Of a DNA stretch of 48,214 bases, positions 9,273 to 47,508 are shown one piece after another (the stretch's first letter is position 1; each line of letters opens with the position of its first letter). Origin of the DNA: Nitrospira sp. (GTDB taxonomy: Bacteria > Nitrospirota > Nitrospiria > Nitrospirales > Nitrospiraceae); NCBI GenBank assembly GCA_029865225.1, contig JAOUHJ010000022.1, positions 1 to 48,214 on the forward strand. Reading direction: 5' to 3'. Made by a program: the position numbers and the translations under genes. The notes under the pieces are model-generated. The model was given only the letters and a program-made list of their open reading frames with translations. It did no database searches and was not told the DNA's origin.

Positions 9273-10460
9273 TCATGCGGCCAGCGCTGTTTGTTCGATG
9301 GCCTGCTGGCATACCTGTTCGAGTTGAGCGGCTCGGGCAGACCAGGTGTGAGCTCGCACGACGGCCGATCGTCCTCGTTGTCCCATGTTCTCCCGAAGTT
9401 CGGCGTGGTCCAATAACGCGATGATCTGACGAGCCAGATCACCGGGATCATCAGCTCGTGCCGATAGCCCACACCCGAGATCACCTACGGTATCGCCATA
9501 TCCCGGTCCTGCTGTTGCCACGACAGGACGCCCGCAGGCGAGATATTCCCACAGTTTCATCGAATCACCAGGATAGGATCGGGTCTGTCTATGTAACACG
9601 ACACAGATATCGAAGGCGGCAATCCACCGAGGGACTTCACTGAAATCGGCTCGCCCAACGAAATGGATCGAGCGGGACAGTTGTAAGCGACGTACCTGTG
9701 CTTCGAGTCTCGGTTTCATGACGCCATCGCCGACTAGAAGACAGCACACCGTGGGGTAGGACTTCGCGACAATGGCGATGGCATCAACAAGTGTATCGAG
9801 GCCATGCCAGGGGAAAAACCCACCCACAAACCCAATATATGGTCCTTGGTCAGGTAGCCCCAACTCTTGTCTGGCCAATTCCTGTGGCAGCGGGGAGAAA
9901 TGAATCGGATCGACACCATTCCTGATGACCGTGAGTTTGGATGAATCTACCGATTCTCGAGACCGGAGACTGTATAAGAGTTCGGGACAAACACTGACGA
10001 TCGCGGCAGCGCTCTCAATGGCAAGATGTAGGCAGTAACCTAAGAGCGCGAGAAGCGGTGGAATACGCCATATACCCCGGACCTCTTCGTTCGGAAGTCC
10101 GTTCACAAAGTATACGATAGGGCAGGAGGTTCCTTGCAGTGCCAAAAGCGGAGCAATTTGGCCTGGTGAATCAAACCACAACACGACATCTGGGCATTGT
10201 TCATGTAGGAGTGTTGTCAATGTTTGTTTGGAGTTCATGAGAAATGATAGTGGGCGGAACCCTCCCCACCTCATGACGGGCACGAAATGCATCTGTACCC
10301 GTGGTGGCATGCTGATTCCCGTGATGGTTCGTTCAGGCTGAGGCGCAACGACGCAGACATCGTGGCCACGCGAAGCCAAGGCTTTGGTGAATTCCAGTAC
10401 TTGCCGTGACCCGCCAGCTGCAACCCCTAGGTCTTCATCACAGTACGTGAGAATGCGCAT
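9273..10460 (-). CDS. GT4-family glycosyltransferase
   Basis: A 395-residue GT-B enzyme that starts MRILTYCDEDLGVAAGGSR, with the glycine-rich N-terminal loop. The C-terminal domain has the VGDGVMKPRLE strand and MKLWEYLACGRPVVAT, the usual donor-binding segment in which the second glutamate of E-x7-E lies. Its start lies inside the end of the preceding GT4 gene (a 23-base overlap), so the two are coupled. The two GT4 proteins have the same length and the same C-terminal motif order, which suggests an old duplication. Donor sugar unknown. Confidence 0.9.
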   Translation of the reverse strand: MRILTYCDEDLGVAAGGSRQVLEFTKALASRGHDVCVVAPQPERTITGISMPPRVQMHFVPVMRWGGFRPLSFLMNSKQTLTTLLHEQCPDVVLWFDSPGQIAPLLALQGTSCPIVYFVNGLPNEEVRGIWRIPPLLALLGYCLHLAIESAAAIVSVCPELLYSLRSRESVDSSKLTVIRNGVDPIHFSPLPQELARQELGLPDQGPYIGFVGGFFPWHGLDTLVDAIAIVAKSYPTVCCLLVGDGVMKPRLEAQVRRLQLSRSIHFVGRADFSEVPRWIAAFDICVVLHRQTRSYPGDSMKLWEYLACGRPVVATAGPGYGDTVGDLGCGLSARADDPGDLARQIIALLDHAELRENMGQRGRSAVVRAHTWSARAAQLEQVCQQAIEQTALAA

Positions 10461-11625
10461 GAGTCTTCACCCTCGTATCCGCATGAATCCATTGCCGAAG
10501 TTGCTGTGCGATCACCGCCCATGAAAAGCTCTTCTCTACAAAGCGTCGACCGTCTTGCCCCATTGCCTGGCAACGGTCGGGGTCTTGTATGAGAGCAATG
10601 ATGGCGTCCGCCAGCAGACGTGGCTGATCAGGGGGTACAAGTTGAACGCCGCTTTGAGCCGTGAACGCGGACACCACCGAAGGGATAGCGCTGGCCACCA
10701 CAGGCCGATGGCATGCCAGATAATCGAAGAGTTTCACCGGTGATGTTTCACCACGATCTCCCCGAAACGGAGCCACGCAGAGGCTCATCGCCCCAATCCA
10801 CACAGGAACGTCGACATAGGGGACGCGTCCGGCCCAGGTAATGCAGTTTTCCAATTCCAGTCGCCTGGCTTGTTGTTCAAGTTCTTCCCGTACTTCCCCA
10901 TCGCCAACCAGGAGAAGGTGCACAGTTGGGCAGACCTTTTTGATTAGCACCATGGCATCAAGAAGACAGGCGAGCCCTTGATAGCGATACAAACTACCAA
11001 TAAATCCAATATATAAGAATGATGGGTGCAGTCCTAGTTGAAGTCTTGACGACACGGCATTGTGTGGTACAAACCGTTGCACATCTGTGCCGCTAGGGAA
11101 GACCGCGATACGTTCGAGGGACACGTGGTAACGCTCGTGAAGCAATGATCGCAAACCGCTCGTCAGTACTACCACATGTTCACAATGTCTTAATGCGAAA
11201 CCGGCTAGCAGATGTTTTAAACGAAGACCGAACCGTGATCTTCCTGTGAACCAGTCAGGAACCGGTTCGCCGTTCACTTCACAGACGCACGGCACTCGGA
11301 GCAATTTGGCAAGGATCAATGCATGCGGGCTGTCCATCCATCGGTAGTACACGACATCTGGTCGTGTCTGGAGTGCATGAATGAGTCCCTGAATGAACGA
11401 GAGCAGTGCGTATGACAGTGGCCGAATCAGTGGTAAAAATATGAGACGGATTGGAACGACCTTGAAGGCGAAGTGATTCGAGGCTGATCGATATCGAGGA
11501 GGAAACAGAACAACCGCATCTCCGGTTTGGGTGAGTGCATCCGCCAAGCTCCACACGCGAACCAATCCCACTGGATCCTGTGGGGCGTCCGGTTCGTACC
11601 AATAACAGAAAAGAAACCAGGTCAT
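10438..11625 (-). CDS. GT4-family glycosyltransferase
   Basis: A 395-residue GT-B enzyme. The visible motifs are VVLFPPRYR in the N-terminal domain, IAVFPSGTD at the domain junction, LLVGDGEVREELE, and VKLFDYLACHRPVVAS in the donor-binding domain. It resembles the next GT4 gene over the C-terminal half (VGDG-x-VREELE and the YLAC-x-RPVVA segment). The start overlaps the polymerase stop by 4 bases. It is expected to act in the cytoplasm on lipid-linked intermediates of the same polysaccharide. Confidence 0.9.
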   Translation of the reverse strand: MTWFLFCYWYEPDAPQDPVGLVRVWSLADALTQTGDAVVLFPPRYRSASNHFAFKVVPIRLIFLPLIRPLSYALLSFIQGLIHALQTRPDVVYYRWMDSPHALILAKLLRVPCVCEVNGEPVPDWFTGRSRFGLRLKHLLAGFALRHCEHVVVLTSGLRSLLHERYHVSLERIAVFPSGTDVQRFVPHNAVSSRLQLGLHPSFLYIGFIGSLYRYQGLACLLDAMVLIKKVCPTVHLLLVGDGEVREELEQQARRLELENCITWAGRVPYVDVPVWIGAMSLCVAPFRGDRGETSPVKLFDYLACHRPVVASAIPSVVSAFTAQSGVQLVPPDQPRLLADAIIALIQDPDRCQAMGQDGRRFVEKSFSWAVIAQQLRQWIHADTRVKTHAHSHVL

Positions 11626-35581: not shown

Positions 35582-35639
35582 TGGTGCCCGGAGGGAGGGT
35601 CGAACTCCCACTCTGTCGCCAGAACCGGATTTTGAGTCC
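35582..35639. repeat. Left attachment site (attL), displaced 3' part of tRNA-Leu
   Basis: These 58 bases are identical to 47422-47479; the match stops at both sides (T versus A before, C versus G after). The segment corresponds to the anticodon stem-loop, variable arm, T arm, acceptor strand and CCA of the tRNA, without the 5' half, so it is not a working tRNA. This is the original chromosomal 3' end, displaced when the element entered. Confidence 0.93.
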
Positions 35640-35750
35640 CTAGGACTCACCCTCACCTACCGTACCTATCAGTCAATATCTCGGCGGATCGGTAACTTAC
35701 ACGCTTCGCGCTGTGATCTCAAGAACCGATTTCACCCCATGCAGACCGAT

Positions 35751-35777
35751 GACTACGGGACAAATTACGGGACAGTG
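35751..35777. repeat. Left pair of TACGGGACA repeats, candidate integrase arm-binding sites
   Basis: Two TACGGGACA copies lie 12 bases apart, about 112 bases inside the left border. Almost the same arrangement (two copies 11 bases apart, flanks GAC and GTG also kept) lies 58 bases inside the right border. A lone inverted copy, TGTCCCGTA, is at 36462-36470. Paired short repeats near both ends are what arm sites of a lambda-type tyrosine integrase look like. Confidence 0.6.
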
Positions 35778-35785
35778 GGAGAGGA

Positions 35786-36316
35786 TCATTCAGGTCTATC
35801 ACGTGGCGACTCGATGCCTAACAGGAGATTTATGTTCGTCATAATCTCATCGAGTGCACGCTCACCTCTCACCATACACCTGTCAAAATCTTTTGAGGAT
35901 GAGATCTCAGGTTCAACATGCACACTCCCTACACGGTTTCTAGATGGGGTATGGGCAAGTGCGTTGCGAACCTTGTTTACAGCCTTAATGTCTGCCATGC
36001 ATGAATCAGAAATCAGTCCTGCCGCTTTCGCTATTTCAATTCGATTAGTGAAAGTGACTCGCCTTACCGCCTCGGAAACTTTCCCAAAGTTCCCTTTCAA
36101 TTTTCCAGAACCGAGGAGCCGTACCGTGAGAATCGCCTCAACCGCACTGTCTAGCAACAGATGTAAGGCAAGGATTGAGGTCAAGCGGTCTGCGGCTTCT
36201 TCGCTATGCAGATGGAGAGCCGAACGGAATTTCATCCACCGATGTTTTTCCAAATTTTTCATCACGGCGTTCACTAAGGCGGCTTTTTTTGAGTCTGTTG
36301 GCTTCGCTGGTCGCAT
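35786..36316 (-). CDS. HEPN-motif protein, MtlR/DUF4145-like helical fold
   Basis: A 176-residue, mainly helical protein. Residues 117-122 read RNALAH, an exact R-N-x3-H motif as found in HEPN ribonucleases and in relatives such as MtlR. The lead-up (LISDSCMADIKAVNKVRNALAH) follows the MtlR/DUF4145 pattern of an LIS turn, then a helix with KVRN-x2-AH. An upstream helix (ALHLLLDSAVEAILTVRLL) fits the fold too. It may be an RNA-cutting toxin or defence effector, or only a scaffold. No antitoxin gene is next to it. It is transcribed outward toward the left border. Confidence 0.6.
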   Translation of the reverse strand: MRPAKPTDSKKAALVNAVMKNLEKHRWMKFRSALHLHSEEAADRLTSILALHLLLDSAVEAILTVRLLGSGKLKGNFGKVSEAVRRVTFTNRIEIAKAAGLISDSCMADIKAVNKVRNALAHTPSRNRVGSVHVEPEISSSKDFDRCMVRGERALDEIMTNINLLLGIESPRDRPE

Positions 36317-36493
36317 GATTCACTTCCCCCGGTGGGTGGATAATGGAGGCACACTCATACCCAAGGGTTTCCATTTATTCAAGTTTCTTCACCCAAGGAA
36401 CCGGATTCGCAATCCTGAGCGTGTCCATAAGTCATTGAATCACTACATAATCTCAAACGGTTGTCCCGTACTTGTCCTGCAAGAGGTTCGCGG

Positions 36494-37015
36494 ATGAGTG
36501 CCCCGAAAACGCCCAAAAAACGAGCGTATCAATACAGCGGGCACTATGCCGTCTCAAAGGCGTTGGAGTCCGTCAAAGATCAAGAGCAGTGGCTGAACAA
36601 CCAAGGCCCGCTTGGTGAAGCATTGAAACAGTTGCGGGAAGACCTCATTGAGAAGCAAGGCGGCAAGGACACCATCACACCCGCTGAACTCATGGCCATT
36701 GAAGGGCTGGTGTTCTGTCACATGCTCATGATGTCGGCAGGCCGGTTCATCGGGGAGCAAGAGTCACCGGTCAACAAGAGCCGACGCCAGTTGTTCCCGG
36801 TGGTCACGCAATGGCTCACGCTGTTTCGGGAAGTCCGAGAGACCGCAAAGGACCTGAATGTGTTGAGGAAGGACCGCCCGAAACCGGAACCGATTTCGTT
36901 GAATCATTATCTCTCGACCACCGGGAAGCCTAAGGGTCCGTCTCCATCCCCTTCCGCTGACGCTCCCACTGCGATGCCCGATACCAATACAAACGAGACT
37001 GAGGGGGCCGCGTGA
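36494..37015 (+). CDS. Probable terminase small subunit-like partner protein
   Basis: The start at 36494 has AAGAGG upstream; the stop overlaps the terminase GTG start by 4 bases (GTGA). The 173-residue protein is helical with a basic N-terminus (APKTPKKRAYQY), a middle that looks like packed helices (LMAIEGLVFCHMLMMSAGRF), and a proline-rich disordered tail. I do not recognise its family. The small-subunit call rests on the coupling and position directly before the large subunit, not on a domain match. Confidence 0.5.
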   Translation: MSAPKTPKKRAYQYSGHYAVSKALESVKDQEQWLNNQGPLGEALKQLREDLIEKQGGKDTITPAELMAIEGLVFCHMLMMSAGRFIGEQESPVNKSRRQLFPVVTQWLTLFREVRETAKDLNVLRKDRPKPEPISLNHYLSTTGKPKGPSPSPSADAPTAMPDTNTNETEGAA

Positions 37016-38499
37016 ATATCATCAACGCCATCGAAGATCCGCACTTGTTCCGCCCGTTGTTCAAAGACCTCGCGACGTGGCGGAACTGGATGACGGTGTT
37101 GAAAGGCATCTTCGCGCTTGAGATGACCGAGGAAGAACGAACGACCTTCACCACACTGACCGGACGGCAGAGCCAGCCAACACAACCAGTTCAAGAAGCC
37201 TGGTTGATCTGTGGCCGACGTGGCGGCAAGTCGTTCATTGTGGCGTTGATTGCCGTCTTCCTCGCCTGCTTCAAAGACTATCGGCCCTCTCTCGGTCCCG
37301 GTGAACGAGGCGTGCTGATGATTATTGCGACGGATCGCAAGCAAGCCCGCGTCATCATGCGCTACATCCTCGCCCTGATTGAACAAGTCCCGATGCTGAA
37401 ACACATGGTGGTCCGCCAGGATTCCGAGAGCCTCGATCTCGACAACATGGTGAGTATCGAGATCACCACCGCCAGCTATCGGACCATTCGAGGCTACACC
37501 GTGATCTCGGCCCTGTGTGACGAAATCAGCTTTTGGCGGAGTGAGGATTCAGTGAATCCGGCAGAAGAGATTCTTGCCGCCTTACGTCCTGCGATGTCCA
37601 CCATTCCCGGCGCGTTATTGATCGGCCTCGGCACGCCGTACAAGCGGAGCGGGCCGCTCTATGCCGCCTGGAAGCGCCACTACGGACAGACTGAGAGCCC
37701 GGTGCTCGTCGTTCAAGCCGACACCCGCACGATGAACCCCAGCGTACCCCAGTCGGTCATTGATCGGGCGACGGAGCTGGACCCACTGGCGGCCAGTGCC
37801 GAGTACTTGGCGCAATTCAGAGGCGATGTTGGGACGTTCTTGGATGCTGACGTGATCGAGCGAGCCATTGAACCGAACCGCCGCGAACGGGCCCCGGTTA
37901 AGAACATCTCTTATACGGCATTCTGTGATCCTTCTGGTGGAGCCCATGACTCATTCACGTTGGCCATCGGCCATCAAGGCGGCAAACGCTCTGTGCTCGA
38001 TGTCTGTCGTGGTATCAAGCCTCCATTTTCGCCTGAGAACGTAGTCAAGGAGTATGCGGCGCTGCTGAAGTCCTATCGGTGTTCCAGTGTCGTGGGTGAT
38101 CGCTATTCTGGGGAATGGGTCCGTGAAGCCTTCAGCAAGGAAGGCATTCACTACCGACATTCTGAGTTGACGAAATCGGAATGCTATCTCGAAAGTTTGC
38201 CGGTGTTCTCTCAAGGCGTCGTCGATCTGGTGGACGTGCCCGCATTGACCACGGAGCTGATGCAGCTCGAACGCCGCACCAGTCGCAGCGGACGCGATAC
38301 CGTCGATCATCCGCCGAATGGCCGGGACGATCTGGCGAATAGCGCCTGTGGTTGTCTGGCGTTGCTCGCGAGCCGTCAGGCGCAGGGGGAAGCGTTCATG
38401 GTCAATTTCCTCACGGGCGTGCCGATTGAACGCGAGGACGACGTTCTGCGTCGCAAGGAAGCGCGATTGCGCGGGGTGCCGGTCGAATCAATCACGTAA
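37012..38499 (+). CDS. terL: Phage terminase large subunit
   Basis: A 495-residue protein, the usual length, with both domains. The ATPase has Walker A GRRGGKS (68-74), Walker B ALCDEISFW with Asp170-Glu171, and a GLGTPYK coupling segment (205-211). The nuclease, RuvC-like, has acidic residues in FCDPSGG (Asp306), VVGDRYSGEW (Asp363) and PNGRDDLANS (439-440). All catalytic positions I can check are present, so the enzyme may work. It starts with GTG. The protein cuts and pumps DNA into capsids, yet no capsid or portal gene is in the element. Confidence 0.93.
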   Translation: MNIINAIEDPHLFRPLFKDLATWRNWMTVLKGIFALEMTEEERTTFTTLTGRQSQPTQPVQEAWLICGRRGGKSFIVALIAVFLACFKDYRPSLGPGERGVLMIIATDRKQARVIMRYILALIEQVPMLKHMVVRQDSESLDLDNMVSIEITTASYRTIRGYTVISALCDEISFWRSEDSVNPAEEILAALRPAMSTIPGALLIGLGTPYKRSGPLYAAWKRHYGQTESPVLVVQADTRTMNPSVPQSVIDRATELDPLAASAEYLAQFRGDVGTFLDADVIERAIEPNRRERAPVKNISYTAFCDPSGGAHDSFTLAIGHQGGKRSVLDVCRGIKPPFSPENVVKEYAALLKSYRCSSVVGDRYSGEWVREAFSKEGIHYRHSELTKSECYLESLPVFSQGVVDLVDVPALTTELMQLERRTSRSGRDTVDHPPNGRDDLANSACGCLALLASRQAQGEAFMVNFLTGVPIEREDDVLRRKEARLRGVPVESIT

Positions 38500-38534
38500 C
38501 CATCGGGCGCAAGCCCATCACAAGGAGGTCTCTC

Positions 38535-39332
38535 ATGGCATTTACGGGGAATATCGTGGCGGGCGTGGCGCATGTCCCGCGTGTGCTCGGGAAAAAACTC
38601 AAAGAAGAACTGGCGATGTATGGGGCCACACACTCCAGCATCTCGACCGTGATGGCAGCGGGCATCGAGAAGTTGAATGAGTGTGATGGCATCATGAGTC
38701 AGTTCCAGGCGCGGGAGGAGATGATACAGACGGATATTCTCTTGAGTCCGGCAGGCAAACAGAAACAGATGGAAGCCGCAGCCAAAGAGTTTTTCGCCAA
38801 GCTGAAATTCGTCGGTGAAGCCGTGGCGTCGCGTCAGGCTGCCGCGAGGGAGTTACGCGCACAACTGGAGAAGGTGCCGCCGTCGGGCTCCGGAGACAAG
38901 GTGGTGGAGTTCTTGACCGGCCAGGAGATTCGGGGGGAACTGCGCAAACTCGCACAGCCAGCGCGGATGAAGCTCCTCAGTGAGCGCACGACAGCGAAGG
39001 ATCTCGCGATCTTGCGAGCGGTCGAAACCAATCCACTCGGTGCACAGGAATTGATTCCTGATGAGTTTCGGGAACGACTCAAAGAAGACCTGGCGGAAAC
39101 GAATCAGGCGGCTGACTATGCCCGGTGGAAAGCCCTCGTGTTCGTCGCTGAGAAGCTGCAACTCCTGGCGAACGTGTTGGAGACGACGCTCGGGAAGTAT
39201 CGCCTCGAGCCGCCGACGTTCTCGATCCCGCCCATCGGCAAGGCCGATTTGAAGATGCAAAACACGCAGCGTCCCGCTGAGAAATCGCCGTCGATTGATC
39301 GTGTCCCCGACGAAGCCCCCGCCGTTCACTGA
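38535..39332 (+). CDS. Helical protein of unknown function next to terminase
   Basis: A 265-residue protein with a strong ribosome-binding site (AAGGAGG). It is predicted mostly helical, with long charged stretches suggesting coiled coils at roughly 65-115 (KQKQMEAAAKEFFAKLK; RQAAARELRAQLEK). It starts MAFTGNIVAGVAHVPRVLGKKL. I find no domain. Its place directly after terL, 35 bases away on the same strand, suggests a link to packaging or to the element cycle, but that is inference. The C-terminus is loose and charged. Confidence 0.65.
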   Translation: MAFTGNIVAGVAHVPRVLGKKLKEELAMYGATHSSISTVMAAGIEKLNECDGIMSQFQAREEMIQTDILLSPAGKQKQMEAAAKEFFAKLKFVGEAVASRQAAARELRAQLEKVPPSGSGDKVVEFLTGQEIRGELRKLAQPARMKLLSERTTAKDLAILRAVETNPLGAQELIPDEFRERLKEDLAETNQAADYARWKALVFVAEKLQLLANVLETTLGKYRLEPPTFSIPPIGKADLKMQNTQRPAEKSPSIDRVPDEAPAVH

Positions 39333-39370
39333 TCGGTGTGGCGCGGCCCCACTGGAGGCGGACGGCGGGT

Positions 39371-39386
39371 GCCCGCATGCGGGGGC
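39371..39386. terminator. GC-rich palindrome between convergent genes
   Basis: A perfect 12-base palindrome (CCCGCATGCGGG at 39372-39383) with one more pairing on each side lies between the convergent ends of the helical-protein gene and the secreted-protein gene. No T run follows it, so a bidirectional terminator is a weak guess. Confidence 0.3.
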
Positions 39387-39408
39387 CGCTGTCCCGTCTG
39401 GGTCCCCA

Positions 39409-39960
39409 TCACAGAACCGGTGGGCTCAGCGCCGTCGGGTTGTCTACGGACTCCCAAACAAACGCCCTGGGATCGTGCGCGAGGACGTCGTTGTAGAGCA
39501 CGCCCACGATCACCGGCCGGTCCTTGTCGCCCACGAACGGCAGCGTATCGCCCTCGTACAGCGCGATCGGCTTCTTGGAAGCGACCGCCGTGAGCACAAA
39601 GATAGGGCTCTGCGTGAACTGCCAATTCGGGTCTGAGCGGCCCATCGAGATCGCTATCGTCAGCACCTTCCTGTCCGTCACGGCCAGCCGTGCCTTCGGG
39701 TCAAGGACGGAGACCGTCCGGCGGAACCCCTCTCCCGAACGTTGGAAGCCACCCAACTCACAGGGGGACATCTGCTCCTCCAGATCGCCGCGCACGTCCA
39801 CCGCACACTTCACCACGACGACGTGGCCTGCCAGAGGCCCGCTGAGATACGTGACCCTGGTCGTGAACTCCTTAAATTCCTGGGCCCCTGCGCTCGCTGC
39901 CCCCCACAGCCCCACGCTCAACCCTACACTGACGAGGACCACCCACATGCGATGGCTCAT
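39409..39960 (-). CDS. Secreted protein, member of the element-encoded paralogue family (copy A)
   Basis: The start at 39960 has AGGAGG and gives a signal peptide (MSHRMWVVLVSVGLSVGLWG, cleaved near ASAGAQ). The mature part shares a pattern with the copies at 41.6 and 42.2 kb: GPLAGHVVVVKCAVDV matches GPYAGKRV-x3-CAV, and ARLAVTDRKVLTI matches ARVAV-x5-L-x-LVI. It has one cysteine pair (CAV and SPCEL). No known domain. It probably acts outside the inner membrane; why a mobile element carries it is unknown. It is the most divergent of the three whole copies. Confidence 0.7.
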   Translation of the reverse strand: MSHRMWVVLVSVGLSVGLWGAASAGAQEFKEFTTRVTYLSGPLAGHVVVVKCAVDVRGDLEEQMSPCELGGFQRSGEGFRRTVSVLDPKARLAVTDRKVLTIAISMGRSDPNWQFTQSPIFVLTAVASKKPIALYEGDTLPFVGDKDRPVIVGVLYNDVLAHDPRAFVWESVDNPTALSPPVL

Positions 39961-40100
39961 GCCTGCCTCCTCTTGGATGATGAATAATGAACCGTCGTTG
40001 ATGACCACGCCGCGTGTCCAGACGGCACCGTGTCCGGGGCCAATGCCGCTCCTTTTATGATCCCAAACGCCCACGCGCTCACGGCGCGATAGGCACTCGC

Positions 40101-40607
40101 TTAGCTCGGACCGCGTACGCACCAGGCACTCGCCTCGCTGTCGGACGACATTTCGACAAAACCGAATCCTCGAGACTGCCCGGTAGTTTTTCCCACCACA
40201 GCAGTCGGAGACACGAGGAGCACCAAGCTCGTCCAGGAGCCTGTGCGGTCCGAGTGGATACCAGGAAAGACGATCGGGGGCACAGAGGGAGGCGGCAAGT
40301 TGGGATCGCGCAGGCTCATCGCCTCATCCCCTGTGGGGAGCCGCCAGCCGAGCGTCCCGCCAACGTCCTTCCCAAGACAGTATTCCATCGCCTTGCGCCA
40401 CGTTCTGGGCGTCAGATCCGGTCGCCGCTCCCACACGAGCTCCGTGTTCTTATCGAGGACCGCCTCGTTCTTAAAGGATGACAGAACTTGAAATCGTTCT
40501 GATGAGGACAGGTTCTTATCCCAAGACTCGGCCATTGCCCACAGAGGGCTTCCTAGGAAGACGATCACCGCAAGCCCACTCAACCACGTCGTGTTTGTCG
40601 TTCGCAT
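40101..40607 (-). CDS. Secreted DUF1566 (Lcl-like) domain protein
   Basis: A 168-residue protein with a signal peptide (TTWLSGLAVIVFLGSPLWAMA, cut after AMA, which is 21 residues so shown as GLAVIVFLGSPLWAMA). The mature part has the DUF1566 pattern: AVLDKNTELVWERRP, then TWRKAMEYC and GWRLPTGDEAMSL, and an ending GFGFVEMSS...CVRG where the family has its YVRCVRG tail. The domain is found in surface proteins of diverse bacteria, some binding glycans. It lies upstream of copy A in the same direction, 140 bases before it, so they may share a transcript. Confidence 0.75.
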   Translation of the reverse strand: MRTTNTTWLSGLAVIVFLGSPLWAMAESWDKNLSSSERFQVLSSFKNEAVLDKNTELVWERRPDLTPRTWRKAMEYCLGKDVGGTLGWRLPTGDEAMSLRDPNLPPPSVPPIVFPGIHSDRTGSWTSLVLLVSPTAVVGKTTGQSRGFGFVEMSSDSEASAWCVRGPS

Positions 40608-40865
40608 GTAACACTCTCCTCCTTGATGTTGGTGCGGTCCCAGTTTGCCCGGTCCACTCCTGCGGACACCTTCCCCCCTTTTTAAGGGACGGATTTAGGG
40701 ACGAGGAGGGAAGGGACGCGAGACGAGCAAGCAGCTCTCCCTCACGGCGCCCCCCTCACCGCTTGACTCGCCACTGGCGCCCGTTGCGGATCGGGACTGA
40801 GCTCGGGACTGAGCACTGCCCGCATGCGCAGGTCCACGTGCAATCACAAATCTCTCCCCTACTCA
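40608..40865. other. Intergenic stretch between DUF1566 gene and IS110 remnant
   Basis: I see no gene in these 258 bases. The part near 40680 has a pyrimidine/purine run (CCCCTTTTTAAGGG) that could be the upstream region of the DUF1566 gene. Confidence 0.3.
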
Positions 40866-41237
40866 TCAATACACCGACTCTTGCATTGGCTCCGGCACGC
40901 GTCCCTCCACCGCATGCACCGCCCGCGCAAGTTTCGCCAGCTTCTTCGCATCCACCCGATCCGTCTTACCCCGGCTTCTCCGTGATCCACTTCACTTCAT
41001 TCGGGTGCACGACATGGACTTGAACCCCCGCCATGCTCGTGAGTGTCTCGGCGATCCATTTCAACTGATTGCCCGCCTCGAAGTCCACCAGCTTGCTGCC
41101 AGTTCCCACTTGTCATACCAGCGCACGAATGCCTGTCCGGGTGGCTGGCTGCTCTCCCGTACACACCGCTGCTTCCGTTCATTGACGGCATATATCACTA
41201 GGCTCTTGCCACTGACATCCAATCCGACGTACACCAT
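40866..41237 (-). pseudogene. Decayed IS110-family transposase, N-terminal part with two frameshifts
   Basis: Read on the minus strand from an ATG at 41237, three frames in turn give the DEDD domain of an IS110 transposase. First MVYVGLDVSGKSLVIYAV, then LVDFEAGNQLKWIAETL with VHVVHPNEVKWITEKPG, then GKTDRVDAKKLAKLARAVHA. The intact family has about 330-400 residues; only the first 120 remain, and the frame changes twice. It cannot be active. It sits between the two groups of secreted-protein genes and may have helped split or duplicate them. Confidence 0.85.
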
Positions 41238-41568
41238 ACAGTGTCCCCTTTCGTTGGTGATGATCGCTCACCGTAGACAGGTGGCCCATCGGGCCTCGAC
41301 TGTGAACCAATTGAAAGAGAGCCCTATTCACAGAATCGTCTTGAATTTGAATCACGCATAGCCATGCCGACACTAGCCGGTGTCCCGGTGGTGGCGCTGG
41401 GCTGCAGCGGGCTTACCAGACCTGCTGCCCTGTCTGACACCGCTGCCGCCAACGATACCCAGCGAGCCCGAACAGGCCGCTGGCGAGCAAGTCGAGAGTG
41501 GCTGGCTCCGGCTCTGGGTGTGGGGGCGTCCACACCGCCCAGACCCATTGCTCCTTCTGTGGTTAGCG
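41238..41568. other. Stretch without a recognisable gene, upstream of the IS110 remnant
   Basis: Open frames exist on both strands because of high GC, but none has a good start, ribosome-binding site or domain. The part nearest 41240 (AAAGGGGACACT on the minus strand) is probably the untranslated left end of the IS110 element. Confidence 0.35.
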
Positions 41569-42144
41569 TTATGGGGGTGTGGGTGTCCAAGTCCCGGTCC
41601 CCGGGCCAACTACATACGTCTGCACGCCAGTAAATTTGTTGGCGGGATTGCCGCTCTCAAATACTCCCTCGACGAGCAGATTCACCAGTAGACTGTCCCC
41701 GTTGTACCGCGGCAGGGCGTTCCTGCCATCGTGGAGTGGGGTGGGTTGCTGGAAGAGCAGGGCGAGCGATAGAAAGGGGGATGTAGACGGGGCCGCGGGT
41801 TGCGACAGCCCCAGGGACGCCGCGGGGATCACCAGGGTGAACACCCGGCCGCCACCCAGCACCGCCACCCGCGCCTTGGCGTGCCTGATTAACTGGATCT
41901 TCTCGTAGACGCCCTCCCGGGACCGCTCAAAGACGGTCAGCTCACTGAGGCCCTCCTGCTCCTCCTGACTGCGGGTCGTGTCCACCGCAACCTTCGCCTC
42001 CACGCGTTTTCCGGCATAGGGCGACTGTTCCGTAAACTCAAGTTTGACAGTGATGCTGGCTGCCTGGGCCGAAACCGGCGCCGCCCCCAACCCACCCACA
42101 CTGACCACCACACTGACCAGAAGGACCCATAAGCTTCGTCTCAT
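41569..42144 (-). CDS. Secreted protein, paralogue family copy B
   Basis: The start at 42144 has AAGGAG upstream and gives the signal peptide MRRSLWVLLVSVVVSVGGLG with cleavage after VSAQ. This leader is identical in copy C, and the DNA match covers about 80 bases. The mature part is about 165 residues: SITVKLEFTEQSPYAGKRVE, KVAVDTTRSQEEQ, ARVAVLGGGRVFTLVI, and LLFQQPTPLHDGRNALP. The C-terminal part differs from copy C (YVVGPGTGTWTPTPP). No cysteines are in the mature part, unlike copies A and C. Family unknown. Confidence 0.7.
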   Translation of the reverse strand: MRRSLWVLLVSVVVSVGGLGAAPVSAQAASITVKLEFTEQSPYAGKRVEAKVAVDTTRSQEEQEGLSELTVFERSREGVYEKIQLIRHAKARVAVLGGGRVFTLVIPAASLGLSQPAAPSTSPFLSLALLFQQPTPLHDGRNALPRYNGDSLLVNLLVEGVFESGNPANKFTGVQTYVVGPGTGTWTPTPP

Positions 42145-42203
42145 CGTCGCTCCTTTCGGTGATGAATGCACTCCGCCCCCGCTTTGTGCCCACGCCCCCG
42201 CCC

Positions 42204-42268
42204 CGTGCCTAGTCGTCATAGACATCGGCGCCCACGATGTCGAAAATCAGACAATCGGGATTGTCCTG
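42204..42268. repeat. 65-bp repeat, first copy (end of paralogue C)
   Basis: These 65 bases match 42829-42893 with a single difference. The segment contains the stop codon and the last 18 codons of the secreted-protein family. Together with the shared signal-peptide DNA of copies B and C, this shows recent duplication within the array. Confidence 0.85.
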
Positions 42269-42760
42269 AAAGGTGCCGTCGAGACTCACGCTCACGAGCG
42301 TGGCCTTGGGTCCGCTCTGGCTCCCCGGCAGGGCCGTGCCGCCATCGTGCAGGCGGGGCCGTGGCTGGTGGAAGAGCAGCTCCACCGCAAAGAACGGGTG
42401 CTTAGAGGTAGCCTGGGGATCCGACGGCACCGGCGAGACCCCGCCGATCACCAGGCGCAACACCTGGCCGCCCACCACCGCCACCCGCGCCTGCCGGTCC
42501 TCCAGCGTGAGGAGCGGCGTGAAGCCCCCCTCCCGCGCCGGGGCCTCGACCCGCATCTTGCAGCGCGTCACCTGCACGTCCTGAGGGCCGCGCAGATTCA
42601 CGGCACACGTTGCCCGCACGCGTTTCCCGGCATAGGGCCCGTCGTGCTGATACGCGACGTTGACGGTGATGCTGCCTTCCTGGGCCGAAACCGGCGCCGC
42701 CCCCAGCCCGCCCACACTGACCACCACACTGACCAGAAGGACCCACAAGCTTCGTCTCAT
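42209..42760 (-). CDS. Secreted protein, paralogue family copy C
   Basis: The start at 42760 has AAGGAG. The signal peptide is the same as in copy B. The mature part shows SITVNVAYQHDGPYAGKRV, CAVNLRGPQDV, ARVAVVGGQVLRLVI and LLFHQPRPRLHDGGTALPG, aligning to copy B over most of its length. The C-terminus QDNPDCLIFDIVGADVYDD is present again in a remnant at 42834, so this gene is part of a longer tandem array. It lies 64 bases upstream of copy B in the same direction. Confidence 0.7.
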   Translation of the reverse strand: MRRSLWVLLVSVVVSVGGLGAAPVSAQEGSITVNVAYQHDGPYAGKRVRATCAVNLRGPQDVQVTRCKMRVEAPAREGGFTPLLTLEDRQARVAVVGGQVLRLVIGGVSPVPSDPQATSKHPFFAVELLFHQPRPRLHDGGTALPGSQSGPKATLVSVSLDGTFQDNPDCLIFDIVGADVYDD

Positions 42761-42828
42761 CGGAGTGCTCCTTTCGCTGCAATGCCTGATGATGGATGAT
42801 GGCCCCCGTGCCCCCCGCGCCTCCGCCG

Positions 42829-42893
42829 CGTGCCTAGTCGTCATAGACATCGCCGCCCACGATGTCGAAAATCAGACAATCGGGATTGTCCTG
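42829..42893. repeat. 65-bp repeat, second copy (in the remnant)
   Basis: Same sequence as 42204-42268 but for one base (C instead of G in the codon that is Gly here and Ala there). The distance between the two, 625 bases, equals about one gene plus spacer, as expected of a tandem duplication unit. Confidence 0.85.
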
Positions 42894-42960
42894 TGCGATG
42901 CCGAAAACGGCCACGACGGCGTCGTGTTTCCTGGTGTCCGGCAAGACCGCCCACGGGCCG
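42834..42960 (-). pseudogene. C-terminal remnant of a further paralogue copy
   Basis: On the minus strand this stretch encodes QDNPDCLIFDIVGGDVYDD and a stop, one residue different from the end of copy C. Upstream, the frame keeps only a weak resemblance (the part VVAVFGIAQDNPDC) and there is no signal peptide or good start. It is therefore the tail of a lost copy. Confidence 0.7.
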
Positions 42961-43511
42961 GGACGCGAGGTACTGATTACACGTGTGTTTGACTGAATGT
43001 CAGCCGAGACCCGGAGGGAGCGGTGGGTCGTAGCCGTGGCGATAGCGGGAACTATCGGCCAGGCGCGGACGGATCGTCTGAGGAATGGTCGTGACGTGCA
43101 TACGGCCTCCGACTCGAATCCTGCCGCTTCGGGAACCACGCGAGCCCACTGTAGCAAACCCATTGGGGCAAATTCTAGACCACGATGACACACACACGCC
43201 TGGTGTGAACGTCGAGGAATGAGGCACGTGCTCCCTGCCCCAACGGCACGGTGAATCGTGTTGGATCCAGCATCGTTTTCGATACCGTGCCTGGTGGCCG
43301 GTGGCGCGTGGATGGTCGGTGACACCGCGATTGCGCCTGACCGGAGGACACCCTCTGCCCGCGTAAGGTTTCCGATTGCCTTCAGTCCGCAGGCCCATGC
43401 TACCATCCCCACCAAGGGGCACGGCTCGGACTCGCGATCTGACCCGGTGATGGTGCCTGGACATCGCCGCCCCCGTCTTTCCTTCCAGGAATCCGAACCA
43501 GGCGGGCCCTC
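42961..43511. other. Stretch without a recognisable gene
   Basis: About 550 bases with overlapping open frames on both strands caused by high GC, none with a convincing start, codon pattern or domain. It may hold the promoter of the plus-strand gene at 43512 and eroded parts of the fourth secreted paralogue near its right-hand side. Confidence 0.4.
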
Positions 43512-44156
43512 GTGCCGAACACACCATCCGAAGAGACACGAACACGCCATACGCGCACGTCGCTTCCCCCGTCCGTACTCGATCAGATGGAGGCCATGGT
43601 CCGCCATCCAGAATTTCAACGGATACTCCCGCTCCTACAGAGCATGGCGGACAAGACGTATGCGAACTTGACGGAGGAGGAAGAGCGAGAGCGAGATGCG
43701 CCACGAACCAAAATTCGGATTGCTGCCATGATGGAAGCCGATGCCCAGTGGCTCAGTCGGTCAATCCGTCAGATTCGCGAACACGGGGAAGGGGCTTGGG
43801 CGGACGAGGCGGTCAACGGACCGTGGGGCGATACGACCGACATCATTCATCTGAACCGTCTTGTTCCCGGCGATCTCCCGCTTGATGAAACGCTGCCGGT
43901 TGTAAGGGAGCATCTACACCAACAACGCCGACAACTCGGTATGACAGCCACGCAGCACCCGCGCCCGCACGAAGTGGATAAGTGGAAGGTGTACGATCTC
44001 CACACCCAGGGTCTTACGTTCTGGGACATCACCCGCCGTCTCTTCAAACTCAAAGGCAAGACCACCTACGACCCTGGCGCACAAGCGCAGTACGCCCAAG
44101 TTCGTCGGGCATATCGTGCCGCCTCTGGCCTGATTCAGGCATACAACGAACGCTAG
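43512..44156 (+). CDS. Helical protein with possible DNA-binding C-terminus, unknown function
   Basis: The longest frame starts with a GTG at 43512; an ATG at 43587 is an alternative. The protein has up to 214 residues. The first half is charged and helical (TEEEERERDAPRTKIRIAAM). In the last 60 residues, VYDLHTQGLTFWDITRRLF then TYDPGAQAQYAQVRRAYRAA looks like a helix-turn-helix: a GLTFWDIT turn and a recognition-like helix with Arg. I recognise no family. It begins the plus-strand set of small genes that leads to the integrase, 96 bases before the AlpA-like gene, so a regulatory role is possible. Confidence 0.6.
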   Translation: MPNTPSEETRTRHTRTSLPPSVLDQMEAMVRHPEFQRILPLLQSMADKTYANLTEEEERERDAPRTKIRIAAMMEADAQWLSRSIRQIREHGEGAWADEAVNGPWGDTTDIIHLNRLVPGDLPLDETLPVVREHLHQQRRQLGMTATQHPRPHEVDKWKVYDLHTQGLTFWDITRRLFKLKGKTTYDPGAQAQYAQVRRAYRAASGLIQAYNER

Positions 44157-44252
44157 CCCTTCCAGTCAGCCCCTCAACTATTTTTCGACGTACAGGCTCC
44201 TCCCCCCTGTGTGTCGCTATCCCTCCGTTTCCTAGAGGGGTATATCAGCAGC

Positions 44253-44441
44253 ATGACGAACAACAAGAAACCACGACCGCCAGTTTCAACCGAGAAACTC
44301 GGCAAGAAACTTCACATCTCAACCTCCTATATCTATCGCCACCAGGATGAGATGCCAGGGAGATTTCGTGTCGGACGATGCCTTCGCTGGGACCCGGATG
44401 TTGTGCTCGAATGGATGCGCAATCAGGGGCGGAAGAAATGA
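44253..44441 (+). CDS. AlpA/excisionase-like winged-helix protein
   Basis: The start at 44253 gives 62 residues: VSTEKLGKKLHISTSYIYRH as a MerR-type helix-turn-helix, then MPGRFRVGRCLRWDPDVVLEWM as the wing with the conserved R-W-D pattern of AlpA-type regulators and excisionases. Such proteins bind attachment-site DNA or activate the integrase. Its stop overlaps the next start (ATGA). The DNA-binding kind and the integrase nearby make an excision-control role likely. Confidence 0.8.
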   Translation: MTNNKKPRPPVSTEKLGKKLHISTSYIYRHQDEMPGRFRVGRCLRWDPDVVLEWMRNQGRKK

Positions 44442-44878
44442 CTGAGGAAGATAGCCACACGAAGGACATCGAATTCAAATTTGATGCGTCGCTGCCGCCG
44501 CTCCTGCCACCTGGAGATCACTACGTGGTCGCCTTTGTCCGTGCAGAACAGCAATTGCTCTGGGGAAAACGGCGCAAACTCTTTATGCATTTCAAGGTTG
44601 TCAGTCCGGCTGAACATGCCGGTGCGGCACTCTTTCTGGCGGCCAATGTCGCGCATGACGGAAAGTGGGGGATCGGTTTCAAATTTTATCGGTTGTGGGC
44701 ACTCGCTGCGGGCTATCGTCCTAAACGGAAAGATCGGCTCAGTACGACGGTCTTCCGCGGGAAGTATTTCAAGGCACGAGTGAAGACCGTCGAGGTTTCA
44801 TCAAAGAACACCAAACGCGCATTGGCTGCCCAATACAGCATTGTCGATGAACTGCTCACAATCGAGGCTGGAGCATGA
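44438..44878 (+). CDS. Conserved mobile-element protein of unknown function
   Basis: A 146-residue protein with LPPGDHYVVAFVRAEQQLLWGKRRKLFMHF near its N-terminus (described as PPGDHYVVAFVRAEQ, then GKRRKLFMHFKV), followed by HAGAALFLAANVA and GFKFYRLWALAAGYRPKRKD, then SIVDELLTIE. I recall similar PPG-Y-x8-E...LxMHF proteins next to AlpA-like genes in other integrated elements, but no function is known to me. It is coupled to both neighbours by ATGA overlaps. It is cytoplasmic. Confidence 0.65.
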   Translation: MTEEDSHTKDIEFKFDASLPPLLPPGDHYVVAFVRAEQQLLWGKRRKLFMHFKVVSPAEHAGAALFLAANVAHDGKWGIGFKFYRLWALAAGYRPKRKDRLSTTVFRGKYFKARVKTVEVSSKNTKRALAAQYSIVDELLTIEAGA

Positions 44879-45210
44879 GCTGGCAACCACTCTTACTTCT
44901 ACTCTTACCAGTACTCCTAGCCATAGCCCTACCTGTACTCGTAGCCGTACCCCCTCCGGCATCAAGGTTCGATAGGCTGGTGTGGCGATTGGCGAGGTAC
45001 TTGGCAGTCTACGCAAGGCACCAATCCAGCGCCTTGCCGAACTCCGGGACGGGACCCGGAGTCCAAACCCCTGGCGACCGAACCCTCCTCCGTCCGGGCT
45101 TCATCGCTCGGACGGCGCCAGGCATACAGTTCACGGAGAAAGACCGCCACCATGAAGATCCGAAGGCAAGTGGCAATAGCACGAGAAGACTGAAGAGCAC
45201 CCAAAGCTGA
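44875..45210 (+). CDS. Small protein with N-terminal membrane segment (doubtful C-terminus)
   Basis: The ATG overlaps the previous stop (ATGA), the same coupling as all its neighbours, so translation starts here plausibly. Residues 5-27 are a strong hydrophobic segment (LLLLLLPVLLAIALPVLVAV). After about residue 50 the sequence looks unlike a folded protein (SALPNSGTGPGVQTPGD), and the DNA there forms three strong hairpins (45013-45121), so only the start may be real or the region may serve as RNA. An antisense frame (45009-45224) with its own hydrophobic start overlaps it. Confidence 0.4.
   Translation: MSWQPLLLLLLPVLLAIALPVLVAVPPPASRFDRLVWRLARYLAVYARHQSSALPNSGTGPGVQTPGDRTLLRPGFIARTAPGIQFTEKDRHHEDPKASGNSTRRLKSTQS
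45013..45121. ncRNA. Candidate structured RNA: three consecutive strong hairpins
   Basis: Three stems follow each other. P1: 45013-45019 pairs with 45031-45037 (7 bp, 11-base loop). P2: 45041-45048 pairs with 45055-45062 (8 bp perfect, 6-base loop). P3: 45071-45076 pairs with 45116-45121 (6 bp), then after a 13-base one-sided bulge 45090-45099 pairs with 45106-45115 (10 bp with one G-U, loop TTCATC). Such an order by chance in 110 bases is unlikely even at this GC. Strand and function are unknown; it might be a regulatory RNA, a structured leader or a site read by a protein. Confidence 0.45.
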
Positions 45211-45239
45211 AGCGAACATGACAAAGCAAGGAGCCTTCC

Positions 45240-45428
45240 ATGAAGTATCTAGTCATGTGCGACCACAATGAAGCCATCATTAATCGTCAGAATGCTGACG
45301 AGGCATTGGAAAGCTTTCGCTGTCGGCGTTGCGTACAGCTTAATCCAGAGACGAAGGCGTTGACCTATCGTAATGTGCGAATTTACCAGGCTTCGGAAGG
45401 CGATGTTCGACTGCTGGAGGGGCGATGA
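45240..45428 (+). CDS. Small protein of unknown function with a CRRC motif
   Basis: A 62-residue protein starting MKYLVMCDHNEAIINRQNA. It has two cysteines close together (FRCRRCVQL) and one earlier Cys-Asp-His, which could bind one zinc. The stop overlaps the next gene (ATGA). No family recognised. The coupling and good spacing to the next small gene favour it being real. Confidence 0.6.
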   Translation: MKYLVMCDHNEAIINRQNADEALESFRCRRCVQLNPETKALTYRNVRIYQASEGDVRLLEGR

Positions 45429-45598
45429 AAGTTCGTCCCGATGCCAAGACCGGGAGCGTGATCGTCGCCATACCCGCACGGGAAGCGATGCACCTTGCAA
45501 GTGAATTGGTCCGGGCGGCGCTGGCCTCAGGGGCCGAGATCGAGCAGGAAGACCGGCAGGAACCGACACCGGATGTGAGCACGGAGCGAGAAGGATGA
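45425..45598 (+). CDS. Very small protein of unknown function
   Basis: A 57-residue frame (MKVRPDAKTGSVIVAIPARE, ending STEREG) coupled by ATGA at its start and by ATGA at its end to the following helix-turn-helix gene. It is short enough to be missed by length cut-offs. It starts with beta-like residues, then a helix (AMHLASELVRAALASG), then an acidic tail. Function unknown. Confidence 0.55.
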   Translation: MKVRPDAKTGSVIVAIPAREAMHLASELVRAALASGAEIEQEDRQEPTPDVSTEREG

Positions 45599-45939
45599 GT
45601 GAGCCTGTCAAAGAGGTGCCAACCTTGGATAGTCTGGTGGCTGATCCAGCACGAGTGTTTCAACTCTCGCCCGATGTCGCACGATTGCTCCTCGGTGGGG
45701 TGAGCGGCCTCCTCCCTGCCCTGATCGCACAGTCCGTGAGGGATACCGGGAAGACCGAGGCCCCCGCCACACCGGAGCGATGGTTGGATGTGGAGCAGGC
45801 CGCAAAGATTTTCAATGTCACAGAGCGATGGTTGAAGACGCATAAGCACAAGCTGCCCCACTCGAAACCATCACATAAGGTGATCCTGTTCCCTGAAGAG
45901 AAGTTGCGCAAGTGGTTTGCGGCCCACAAGTCGAACTGA
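45595..45939 (+). CDS. Helix-turn-helix protein, excisionase-like C-terminal domain
   Basis: A 114-residue protein. The first 60 residues include a hydrophobic region (VARLLLGGVSGLLPALIAQS), amphipathic more than membrane-like. The C-terminal part, RWLDVEQAAKIFNVTERWLK then HSKPSHKVILFPEEKLRKWF, is the MerR-type helix-turn-helix plus wing seen in excisionases. It is the second protein of this kind in the element, with the AlpA-like one at 44253. One may act on the att site and the other on transcription. It is convergent with the RHH gene 8 bases away. Confidence 0.75.
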   Translation: MSEPVKEVPTLDSLVADPARVFQLSPDVARLLLGGVSGLLPALIAQSVRDTGKTEAPATPERWLDVEQAAKIFNVTERWLKTHKHKLPHSKPSHKVILFPEEKLRKWFAAHKSN

Positions 45940-45946
45940 GGGGGGA

Positions 45947-46138
45947 TTAGGTGTCTTTGGACTTGGGAAGTCTGCCCTCGTGTTCCAATTCGGCAACACG
46001 GTCTTCCGCCAGCTTCAACAGCCAGTCTCTCGCGGACATCTGCTCCGCTGCAGCGGCCATTTTGATCTTGAAAAACGTCTTGGCAGGAATCGCCCGCAGA
46101 TTGAATGCATGCACCGGAGCCTTCTTCTTGGTCGCCAT
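45947..46138 (-). CDS. Ribbon-helix-helix protein divergent from the integrase
   Basis: The start at 46138 gives 63 residues: MATKKKAPVHAFNLRAIPAK is basic and ends in a strand (AFNLRAIP), then two helices (KTFFKIKMAAAAEQ, and SARDWLLKLAEDRVAEL). This is the ribbon-helix-helix layout. It is read away from the integrase, with 116 bases between the starts, so it is placed to repress the integrase promoter and its own. A perfect 13-base palindrome lies in that gap. The stop is 7 bases from the convergent helix-turn-helix gene. Confidence 0.7.
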   Translation of the reverse strand: MATKKKAPVHAFNLRAIPAKTFFKIKMAAAAEQMSARDWLLKLAEDRVAELEHEGRLPKSKDT

Positions 46139-46199
46139 GCCGCACCATAGCACGATGATACAGGCGGGACAATGTGGTTGTGGCAACAATGTATTGTTT

Positions 46200-46212
46200 G
46201 ATACACTGTATC
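46200..46212. promoter_or_regulatory. Perfect palindrome, candidate operator between RHH gene and integrase
   Basis: GATACA-C-TGTATC is a perfect palindrome about 43 bases before the integrase start and 61 from the RHH start. Ribbon-helix-helix proteins bind such short palindromes as pairs of dimers. AATGTATTG just before it adds more AT-rich half-site-like sequence. A chromosomal inverted repeat near attL (35466) has a similar GTATCAT half-site. Confidence 0.5.
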
Positions 46213-46254
46213 ATTCAGTACAGTCTCCTCAGGTACCACAGGGAGGACACCAGC

Positions 46255-47406
46255 ATGGCTAAGCGAGGGCGGATCTATCGACGGACCAAGAAGGACCCTA
46301 TCACGGGTGAGCGCGTGGAAGTCGGGCCATACAAGGTTCAACTCTGGATAAACGGACGAGACCATCGGCAATCGTCGCATTCCGAAAAGCGTGAAGTCGC
46401 TGAGAAGCTGTTGACGAAACTCCTGGCTGCCAAGGACGCAGGGACGCTGACTGACGCGACGACGAAGCCGCTGCGGTTTAAAGACCTGCAAGCGGCCATT
46501 GAGCTAGAGTATCGCTTGAAACAGAACAAGTCGCTGGATCGAATGCAGGACGCCTTTCAGGCGCTCGGGACCACGTTCGAGGGCTCGAAAACAAATGCCA
46601 TCACGAAGCAGCGATTGAAGGAGTATGTGACGGAACGACTGGAAGCGGGCAAGGCCCCCGCGACCGTGCTCTACGAACTGCGGATGCTCCGCTATGCTTT
46701 CAAGTTGGTCGAATTGCCCTGCCCGCCCCTACCGACCATCGAGGTCAACAATGTGAGGCGAAACTTCTTTGAGCCCCATGAATTTCAGACTATGGTGAAG
46801 CACCTACCGGTGTATCTCCGGCCTGTGATGACGGCGGCGTTTCTCATGGGCTGGCGGACGCAATCGGAACTCCTGCCGTTGCAATGGAAGCACGTAGACT
46901 TCAACTCGGGAGTGATTACTCTTCCGACTGGTTCCACCAAGAACGGTGAGGGACGCGCCTACCCCTTCGGAAAGTTCCCTGAACTCGTGGCCTTGTTTCA
47001 CGCACGCTGGCAGGAACGAGAGGACTTGCAGCGAGCGCGGGGGATCGTAATCCCCTGGGTATTCTTTCGAGTCGAGAAGACGGCAGTGAAGCCGATCAAG
47101 AGCTATACGACGGCATGGAACAATGCCCGAATCAAGGCAGGCTTATCTGATCGGTGGGTGCATGATTTCCGCCGATGTGGAGCCCGGTCACTCCGACAGG
47201 CCGGAGTAGAGGAAAGTGTGGCTATGGGGCTGCTCGGCCAGAAGACTCCGAGTATGTACCGACGCTATGACATCGTGGACTTGAAAGATCTCACTGTCGG
47301 TGTGGAGAAGTTGGCGGCGTTTCATGCTCACCAGGCAGGACTACGGGACAATTACGGGACAGTGACGCCACTTCCGATTCCCACGAAGAAGGAGAACCAT
47401 GGCTAA
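46255..47406 (+). CDS. int: Tyrosine-type site-specific integrase of the element
   Basis: The start at 46255 (MAKRGRIYRR, with GGGAGGA ahead of it) gives 383 residues. An N-terminal DNA-binding part (1-65) and a core-binding domain (75-165) lead to the catalytic domain. Its residues are Arg201 (GWRTQSELLPLQW), Lys229 (STKNGEGR), His303 and Arg306 (HDFRRC), and nucleophile Tyr338 (YRRYDIVD). The second His/Trp position is Gln329 (LLGQKTPS), as in some phage integrases. The end (DNYGTVTP) is encoded by the right-hand TACGGGACA repeats. The gene ends 15 bases before the tRNA-Leu repeat, the usual place for a tRNA-targeting integrase. Confidence 0.95.
   Translation: MAKRGRIYRRTKKDPITGERVEVGPYKVQLWINGRDHRQSSHSEKREVAEKLLTKLLAAKDAGTLTDATTKPLRFKDLQAAIELEYRLKQNKSLDRMQDAFQALGTTFEGSKTNAITKQRLKEYVTERLEAGKAPATVLYELRMLRYAFKLVELPCPPLPTIEVNNVRRNFFEPHEFQTMVKHLPVYLRPVMTAAFLMGWRTQSELLPLQWKHVDFNSGVITLPTGSTKNGEGRAYPFGKFPELVALFHARWQEREDLQRARGIVIPWVFFRVEKTAVKPIKSYTTAWNNARIKAGLSDRWVHDFRRCGARSLRQAGVEESVAMGLLGQKTPSMYRRYDIVDLKDLTVGVEKLAAFHAHQAGLRDNYGTVTPLPIPTKKENHG
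47339..47364. repeat. Right pair of TACGGGACA repeats inside the 3' end of int
   Basis: Two copies of TACGGGACA 11 bases apart, with flanks GAC and GTG, almost match 35751-35777 (one A fewer). They lie 58 bases inside the right border, in the same direction as the left pair, and overlap codons 364-371 of int. In the circular form they would flank the core on both sides. Confidence 0.6.
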
Positions 47407-47421
47407 GTGCTTGATAAGTTA

Positions 47422-47479
47422 TGGTGCCCGGAGGGAGGGTCGAACTCCCACTCTGTCGCCAGAACCGGATTTTGAGTCC
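47422..47479. repeat. Right attachment site (attR), within tRNA-Leu
   Basis: Identical 58 bases to 35582-35639. Because the left copy lacks the 5' half of the tRNA, the 3' half now in the working gene was brought by the element. The repeat reaches the anticodon loop, where integrases of this type often exchange strands. Confidence 0.93.
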
Positions 47480-47508
47480 GGCGCGTCTGCCAGTTCCGCC
47501 ATCCGGGC
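47422..47508 (-). tRNA. tRNA-Leu (anticodon CAA)
   Basis: Read on the minus strand, 47508 to 47422. The acceptor stem is GCCCGGA with TCCGGGC (7 bp), then discriminator A and an encoded CCA. The D arm has the TGGCGGAACTGGCAGACGC pattern of leucine tRNAs. The anticodon stem CCGGA/TCCGG holds loop CTCAAAA with anticodon CAA, reading UUG. A long variable arm marks it as class II, and the T arm is GGGAG-TTCGACC-CTCCC. The gene was rebuilt by the element: the 3' 58 bases come from the element side. Confidence 0.97.

Follow-up and report, generated by a model that had tools for sequence, protein, structure and literature searches.

Several families of phage satellites have been described, and they are listed in a 2024 review (PMC11389934). 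The SaPIs bring only a small terminase (TerS), and the Proteobacterial PICIs bring an adaptor, Rpp, for the TerS of the helper phage, the packaging motor being in both cases that of the helper (PMC10690885). P4 is packaged by the terminase of P2 (PMC10690885), and AH14b has no terminase gene (PMC4936722). The cfPICIs encode both terminase subunits together with capsid, protease, portal, and connectors, and the Streptomyces satellites MulchRoom and MiniFlayer have their own small and large terminase plus portal, capsid, and scaffold (PMC10690885). Tycheposons and VEIMEs, named in the same review, are tRNA-linked or integrative marine elements proposed to be satellites (PMC11389934). A search of the open-access journal literature found no paper about satellites of Nitrospira or about terminase-only satellites.

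The locus described here lies in a window of 48,214 nucleotides (the whole stretch of DNA that was analysed), which is contig C80 of the genome of a Nitrospira host. It contains an element of 11.9 kb (35582–47479) with 58-bp perfect direct repeats at its ends. One copy of the repeat (47422–47479) is the 3′ part of a tRNA-Leu(CAA) gene (47422–47508), and the distal copy is at 35582–35639; the same repeat occurs at the same site in the related element L027. In the related Nitrospira loci L142, L143, L144, L146, and L147 this tRNA-Leu site is empty: an intact tRNA-Leu gene is found about 1.1 kb from tusA, and both flanks of the window align there. The repeats, the integrase, and the empty sites in relatives together establish an integrated element with both ends in hand. 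The tyrosine integrase (46255–47406, forward strand) adjoins the tRNA gene and was recognised by both Pfam (Phage_integrase, 1.1e-11) and PHROGs (phrog_1, 4e-29), and its nearest relative in the genus, 56% identical, is encoded by L027, which occupies the same site. Two further forward-strand genes encode an excisionase/HTH-like protein (44211–44441; phrog_66, 7e-5) and an HTH_17 excisionase or regulator (45595–45939; Pfam HTH_17, 3e-7, and phrog_66) with homologues in L027 and L168. The sequence AATTACGGGACAGTG (35763–35777, forward strand), which has a second copy at 47350–47364 and its core in L027 at 5591–5603, is possibly an arm site of the integrase.

A first-pass annotation of this DNA had placed three open reading frames at 36494–37015, 37012–38499, and 38535–39332, which is where they were found, and had read the middle one as a large terminase (TerL) retaining its ATPase and nuclease residues under selection. 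This gene (forward strand, 495 aa, GTG start) overlaps the upstream frame by 4 nt. Its product matches phrog_2, "terminase large subunit," with an E-value of 5.9e-23 in PHROGs; the match to Pfam TerL_ATPase, at 18.8 bits, is under the 23.7-bit cut-off. A profile made from ten TerL relatives retrieves T4 gp17 from the PDB, and the Walker A and B motifs of the two coincide in the alignment. Both the Walker A/B motifs and the acidic triad of a RuvC-like nuclease were found in the window TerL, and all of the residues named earlier are there: the Walker A sequence GRRGGKS (G68xxxG72-K73-S74), D170-E171, D306, D363, and D439-D440. With the exception of K73 and S74, these residues are invariant across the ten relatives. 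The protein is 76% identical over 494 residues to that of the Nitrospira LK70 element, far beyond chance, with a dN/dS of about 0.16 (dN 0.229; dS 1.45, which is close to saturation), and the closer pair L022–L023 gives 0.09, so that the proposed selection to keep the enzyme was confirmed. The TerL of the window is intact and under purifying selection. In L022 (8719–10176) and L023 (12503–13960) the Walker A lysine is replaced by glycine (GRRAGGS) in copies that are otherwise well conserved and selected; judged from this motif, their ATPase may be altered.

Directly upstream of TerL is a gene for a protein of 173 aa (36494–37015, forward strand, ATG start), and about 40 loci have a member of its HMM family either immediately before TerL or near it. 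The suggestion that it is the small terminase agrees with its placement before TerL; profile searches against known TerS families gave no firm match (those of single members had E-values of 0.026–0.037), and the protein did not match the phage TerS of related contigs. We infer solely from its position that it is a TerS, and it is called TerS-like throughout.

The second companion, of 265 aa (38535–39332, forward strand, ATG start), is conserved beside TerL, its homologues adjoining that gene in Nitrospiraceae, on plasmids, and on IMG/VR contigs. A profile of the three close members of this family retrieved relatives from Methylobacterium and Nitrospira with E-values of 7e-7 to 8e-4; those from IMG/VR were weak in the first round (2e-3 to 0.16), and their assignment is based on iteration and position. 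An AlphaFold2 model made from 13 sequences has nine helices and no strand, with a pLDDT of 80.5 and a pTM of 0.71 (pLDDT 52 when modelled without an alignment), and fold searches with it returned only generic helical bundles and no nameable family. The first-pass annotation had named a hidden portal or capsid fold in the companions as the finding that would speak against its reading. In the 265-aa protein no such fold was seen. Because the model is a confident all-helical bundle, unlike the mixed alpha/beta folds expected of a portal or an HK97 capsid, the protein is neither of these, and because true portals (phrog_145) coexist with members of its family in L043, L046, L080, and L113, it is not the portal; with its size, these observations rule out both a portal and an HK97 capsid. 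Candidate roles are those of a scaffold-like protein, a partner of the terminase, or a factor interfering with the helper. In L023 (11248–12390) the TerS-like and helical proteins are in one frame of 380 aa, possibly a natural fusion linking the two functions, although it could also be a frameshift.

No head, capsid, portal, protease, neck, or tail family was found among the proteins of the element in the Pfam and PHROGs scans, in agreement with the earlier statement that structural genes are absent. Truncation of the assembly was ruled out as the cause of the missing genes, since a single contig holds both repeats. Neither a PF05065 capsid nor a PF04860 portal is encoded in the host genome; across the genus, no more than 5 of the 79 genomes have a portal gene, and the host is not one of these. 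The possibility that the host has another terminase or a prophage was also rejected: by their gene context, its other two phrog_2 matches, both weak, lie in a PhoH-like gene and in a helicase-like or other non-phage region. In addition, no primase or replication module was recognised among the proteins of the element by Pfam and PHROGs, whereas most relatives have a primase; the window copy may therefore replicate poorly or lean on a helper.

The remaining genes are of several kinds. Near the distal repeat, a protein of 176 aa (35786–36316, reverse strand) resembles HEPN/Abi proteins by weak, sub-cut-off Pfam matches and by phrog_5483 (5e-9). It has a 70% identical homologue at the equivalent position in L027 and may serve the lineage of elements at this tRNA-Leu in regulation or against phages. 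Behind the three terminase-associated genes, on the reverse strand, are genes of exported proteins. Three of them (39409–39960, 41569–42144, and 42209–42760) are paralogues, the first of which has a signal-peptide-like start, belongs to cluster c12, and matches no family, and the fourth (40101–40607) has an Lcl_C domain (Pfam PF07603, 1.7e-13). In the region 39409–42850 the exported-protein gene is present in three copies that have diverged, next to the Lcl_C gene, with a partial fourth repeat near 42814–42903, and the elements of LK70 and L025 have lipoprotein-like cargo at the equivalent place. On the forward strand, a protein of 214 aa (43512–44156) has homologues in L032 (29%) and L166 (53%), and one of 155 aa (44411–44878) has a homologue in L168 (38%); neither belongs to a recognised family.

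The trio of TerS-like, TerL, and helical genes recurs beside tRNA integrases in other genomes, which the first-pass annotation had proposed as a check. It was found within repeat-bounded elements at tRNA-Lys in LK70 (L032, 49-bp repeats), at tRNA-Glu in L025 (16 bp), and, in another genus of Nitrospiraceae, at tRNA-Met in L166 (19 bp), where the recombinase is a serine recombinase. These elements are likewise without portal or tail. Further Nitrospira loci have the trio beside a tRNA or tmRNA, and in L022, L023, L024, and L028 the same three genes are in the order TerS-like, helical, TerL. Other relatives have one structural gene. L027 (5407–14691), a 9-kb repeat-bounded element, occupies the tRNA-Leu site used in the window and has homologues of the HEPN, TerS-like, HTH, and integrase genes found there; behind its TerL is a PF05065 capsid gene (5.9e-34). 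L168 (4684–13807), also of 9 kb and repeat-bounded, at tRNA-Ser, has TerS-like, TerL, and PF05065 capsid genes; both are without portal, protease, and tail. L029 and L031 have a prohead protease instead of the capsid. In the related elements of Nitrospiraceae a capsid or a prohead protease is added, never a portal or tail, and since some relatives have one structural gene, the window element stands at one end, that without a capsid, of a mix-and-match family. When 47 other proteins of eight Nitrospira elements were scanned against PHROGs, satellite-style primase, replication, and excisionase families were obtained, and no head or tail family was among the 25 listed of 34.

Beyond Nitrospiraceae, the trio is present without annotated virion genes on the Methylobacterium plasmid pM44601 (Alphaproteobacteria); the Komagataeibacter plasmid pKNA06 has TerS-like and TerL genes followed by a DUF2213 head protease, and a 9.7-kb Roseomonas plasmid has a TerS-like gene and a piece of TerL. 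A scan of IMG/VR with the single TerL sequence returned nothing, while the TerL profile returned 80 loci. The IMG/VR contigs L035–L040, L045, L047, L058, L060, L064, L065, and L082, of 8–21 kb and most with an integrase or recombinase, combine TerS-like and TerL genes with differing selections from protease, tape measure, tail completion, baseplate hub, and capsid, and no portal was found in them. Because these contigs are possibly incomplete, a missing portal is weaker evidence there than in the repeat-bounded elements of Nitrospira. Two integrase elements near a tRNA mirror the one in the window, L185 (G012:C1:558001-578000; 4247–10966) and L186 (G068:C6:23001-43000; 3998–11077): they have a lone HK97-like capsid gene (376–386 aa), and no homologue of terminase or portal is among their called genes. 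Two small circular records, Rhodococcus pDJL3 (L190, 15.9 kb; terminase, tape measure, and integrase) and Salinibacter pSR14 (L191, 14.9 kb; terminase), have no annotated capsid or portal and may be elements of a similar kind in an excised or episomal state.

Taken together, the genes of the element are most readily explained by a phage satellite that brings its own packaging motor and borrows the shell, portal, and tail of a helper, a reading that we consider probable. It is filed as a phage satellite by its anatomy, namely integrase, attachment repeats, and an incomplete virion set. Upon infection by a helper phage, excisionase and integrase would release the island, and the TerS-like protein would mark its DNA. 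The TerL of the island would then bind the helper portal on proheads made by the helper and pump the island in, with portal, shell, and tail supplied by the helper, whose tails would complete the particle. The helical companion would most likely aid TerS and TerL or act on the helper prohead, perhaps in the manner of a scaffold or by interfering with the helper; its role is the weakest step of the scheme. The exported-protein genes behind the trio would be cargo. The satellite reading is supported by the ends of the element, the empty sites, the integrase and excisionase-like proteins, and the intact, selected TerL. The occurrence of the trio at different tRNAs and on plasmids of Alphaproteobacteria, the satellite-style primases of the relatives, the portal-less TerL clade described below, and the rarity of portals in the genus also favour it. 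Against it count the demanding requirement that TerL fit a foreign portal, the identification of TerS by position, and the window copy being without a primase.

The main competing explanation, that the locus is a decaying and no longer mobile remnant of a prophage or satellite, whose capsid, portal, and tail genes are gone and whose terminase is a leftover, was addressed with a tree of 88 TerL proteins (SH-aLRT support). The clade that holds the window TerL (SH-aLRT 97) is made up of six Nitrospira elements, none with a portal, and portal-bearing phages are elsewhere in the tree. Portal-less elements with a TerS-like gene cluster strongly, with 11 changes vs. 27 in shuffles, to which near-copies contribute. 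A supported clade made solely of portal-less elements argues against a recently truncated prophage, and with the portal phages placed elsewhere, the portal-less state looks inherited and stable in Nitrospira. The other outcome that the first-pass annotation had named against itself, relatives that are just truncated prophages, is therefore not what the tree indicates, and the nearest relatives are repeat-bounded elements. Decay does occur in this group: the TerL of G320 is a piece with an internal stop, those of G038 and G016 are short pieces with a stop, and L167 (7503–17714, G320:C2), with several copies of the tRNA-Lys end repeat and the TerL fragment, is a decayed array of such elements. 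The window copy itself has no recognisable primase, and exported-protein cargo fills its middle. However, its three genes are intact, its TerL has the low dN/dS given above, its 58-bp repeats are perfect, and the same portal-less set occurs in independent elements at different tRNAs, so that we regard a remnant as unlikely.

Alternatively, the terminase might act against or beside phages, for example poisoning the packaging of the helper, its TerL or TerS mixing with those of the helper, or using its nuclease to process the concatemers of the element. The HEPN/Abi-like gene in the same element would suit such a use, and the loss of the Walker A lysine in L022 and L023 fits a dominant-negative or nuclease role there, but the window TerL retains its ATPase motifs as well as those of the nuclease, and the trio has a TerS-like member and is integrase-linked in the Nitrospira elements where an integrase is seen; this reading is quite improbable. 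It is more doubtful still that the element is a reduced capsid-forming satellite, whose ancestor had its own capsid as L027 does and which now relies on the capsids of a co-resident relative. L027, with homologous genes at the same tRNA-Leu site, and L168 do have TerL followed by a capsid gene; nevertheless, the window TerL belongs to the capsid-less clade and not with that of L027 (35% identity, long branch), and the host is without a PF05065 gene.

The satellite that brings its motor may also stand for more than one locus. We hold at somewhat less than even the tentative proposal of a widespread class whose members come with a complete motor, made up of TerS, TerL, and a helical protein dedicated to them, while the helper provides portal, shell, and tail; related islands add just one part to this (capsid or prohead protease), and related contigs tape measure and tail pieces. 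In known satellites, packaging specificity comes from redirecting the motor of the helper or from building an entire new head. If the proposal is true, satellites would swap virion parts module by module, not all or nothing, and a satellite replacing the motor itself would mean that the pairing of TerL and portal is loose enough to be parasitised. It would also reveal gene movement in Nitrospira, a genus of key nitrifiers in which few prophages can be recognised. A TerS-like gene, TerL, and the helical partner beside a tRNA integrase, with no portal, provide a signature for searches in Nitrospirota, Alphaproteobacteria, and plasmids.

Compared with the known satellites, the element is like PICIs and SaPIs in its integrase, excisionase/AlpA-type regulators, tRNA-type attachment repeats, size (10–15 kb in those islands), the primase usual in its relatives, and the proposed redirection of packaging to the island; regulators of this type are present near the integrase (the HTH_17/phrog_66 proteins at 45595 and 44211). 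It differs from the PICIs in having its own intact TerL where they rely on that of the helper, and in the primase/replication module, which was not recognised in the window element. P4-like satellites, PICMI, PLE, and AH14b resemble it as small integrative elements that have no structural genes, and they use the particles of a helper. With the cfPICIs it shares an own TerL, and would share both subunits if the TerS-like protein is a TerS, but not the capsid, protease, portal, and connectors, none of which is in the window element, nor is a portal in the Nitrospira relatives examined. MulchRoom and MiniFlayer likewise share an own large terminase with it and differ by their portal, capsid, and scaffold. 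An own TerL without a shell is not among the strategies given in PMC10690885, PMC4936722, and PMC11389934, a comparison that covers tycheposons and VEIMEs by name only, where a precedent is possible. The satellites described in these papers borrow the motor of the helper or bring motor and shell together, and the split found in the window, a motor brought without a shell, differs from both.
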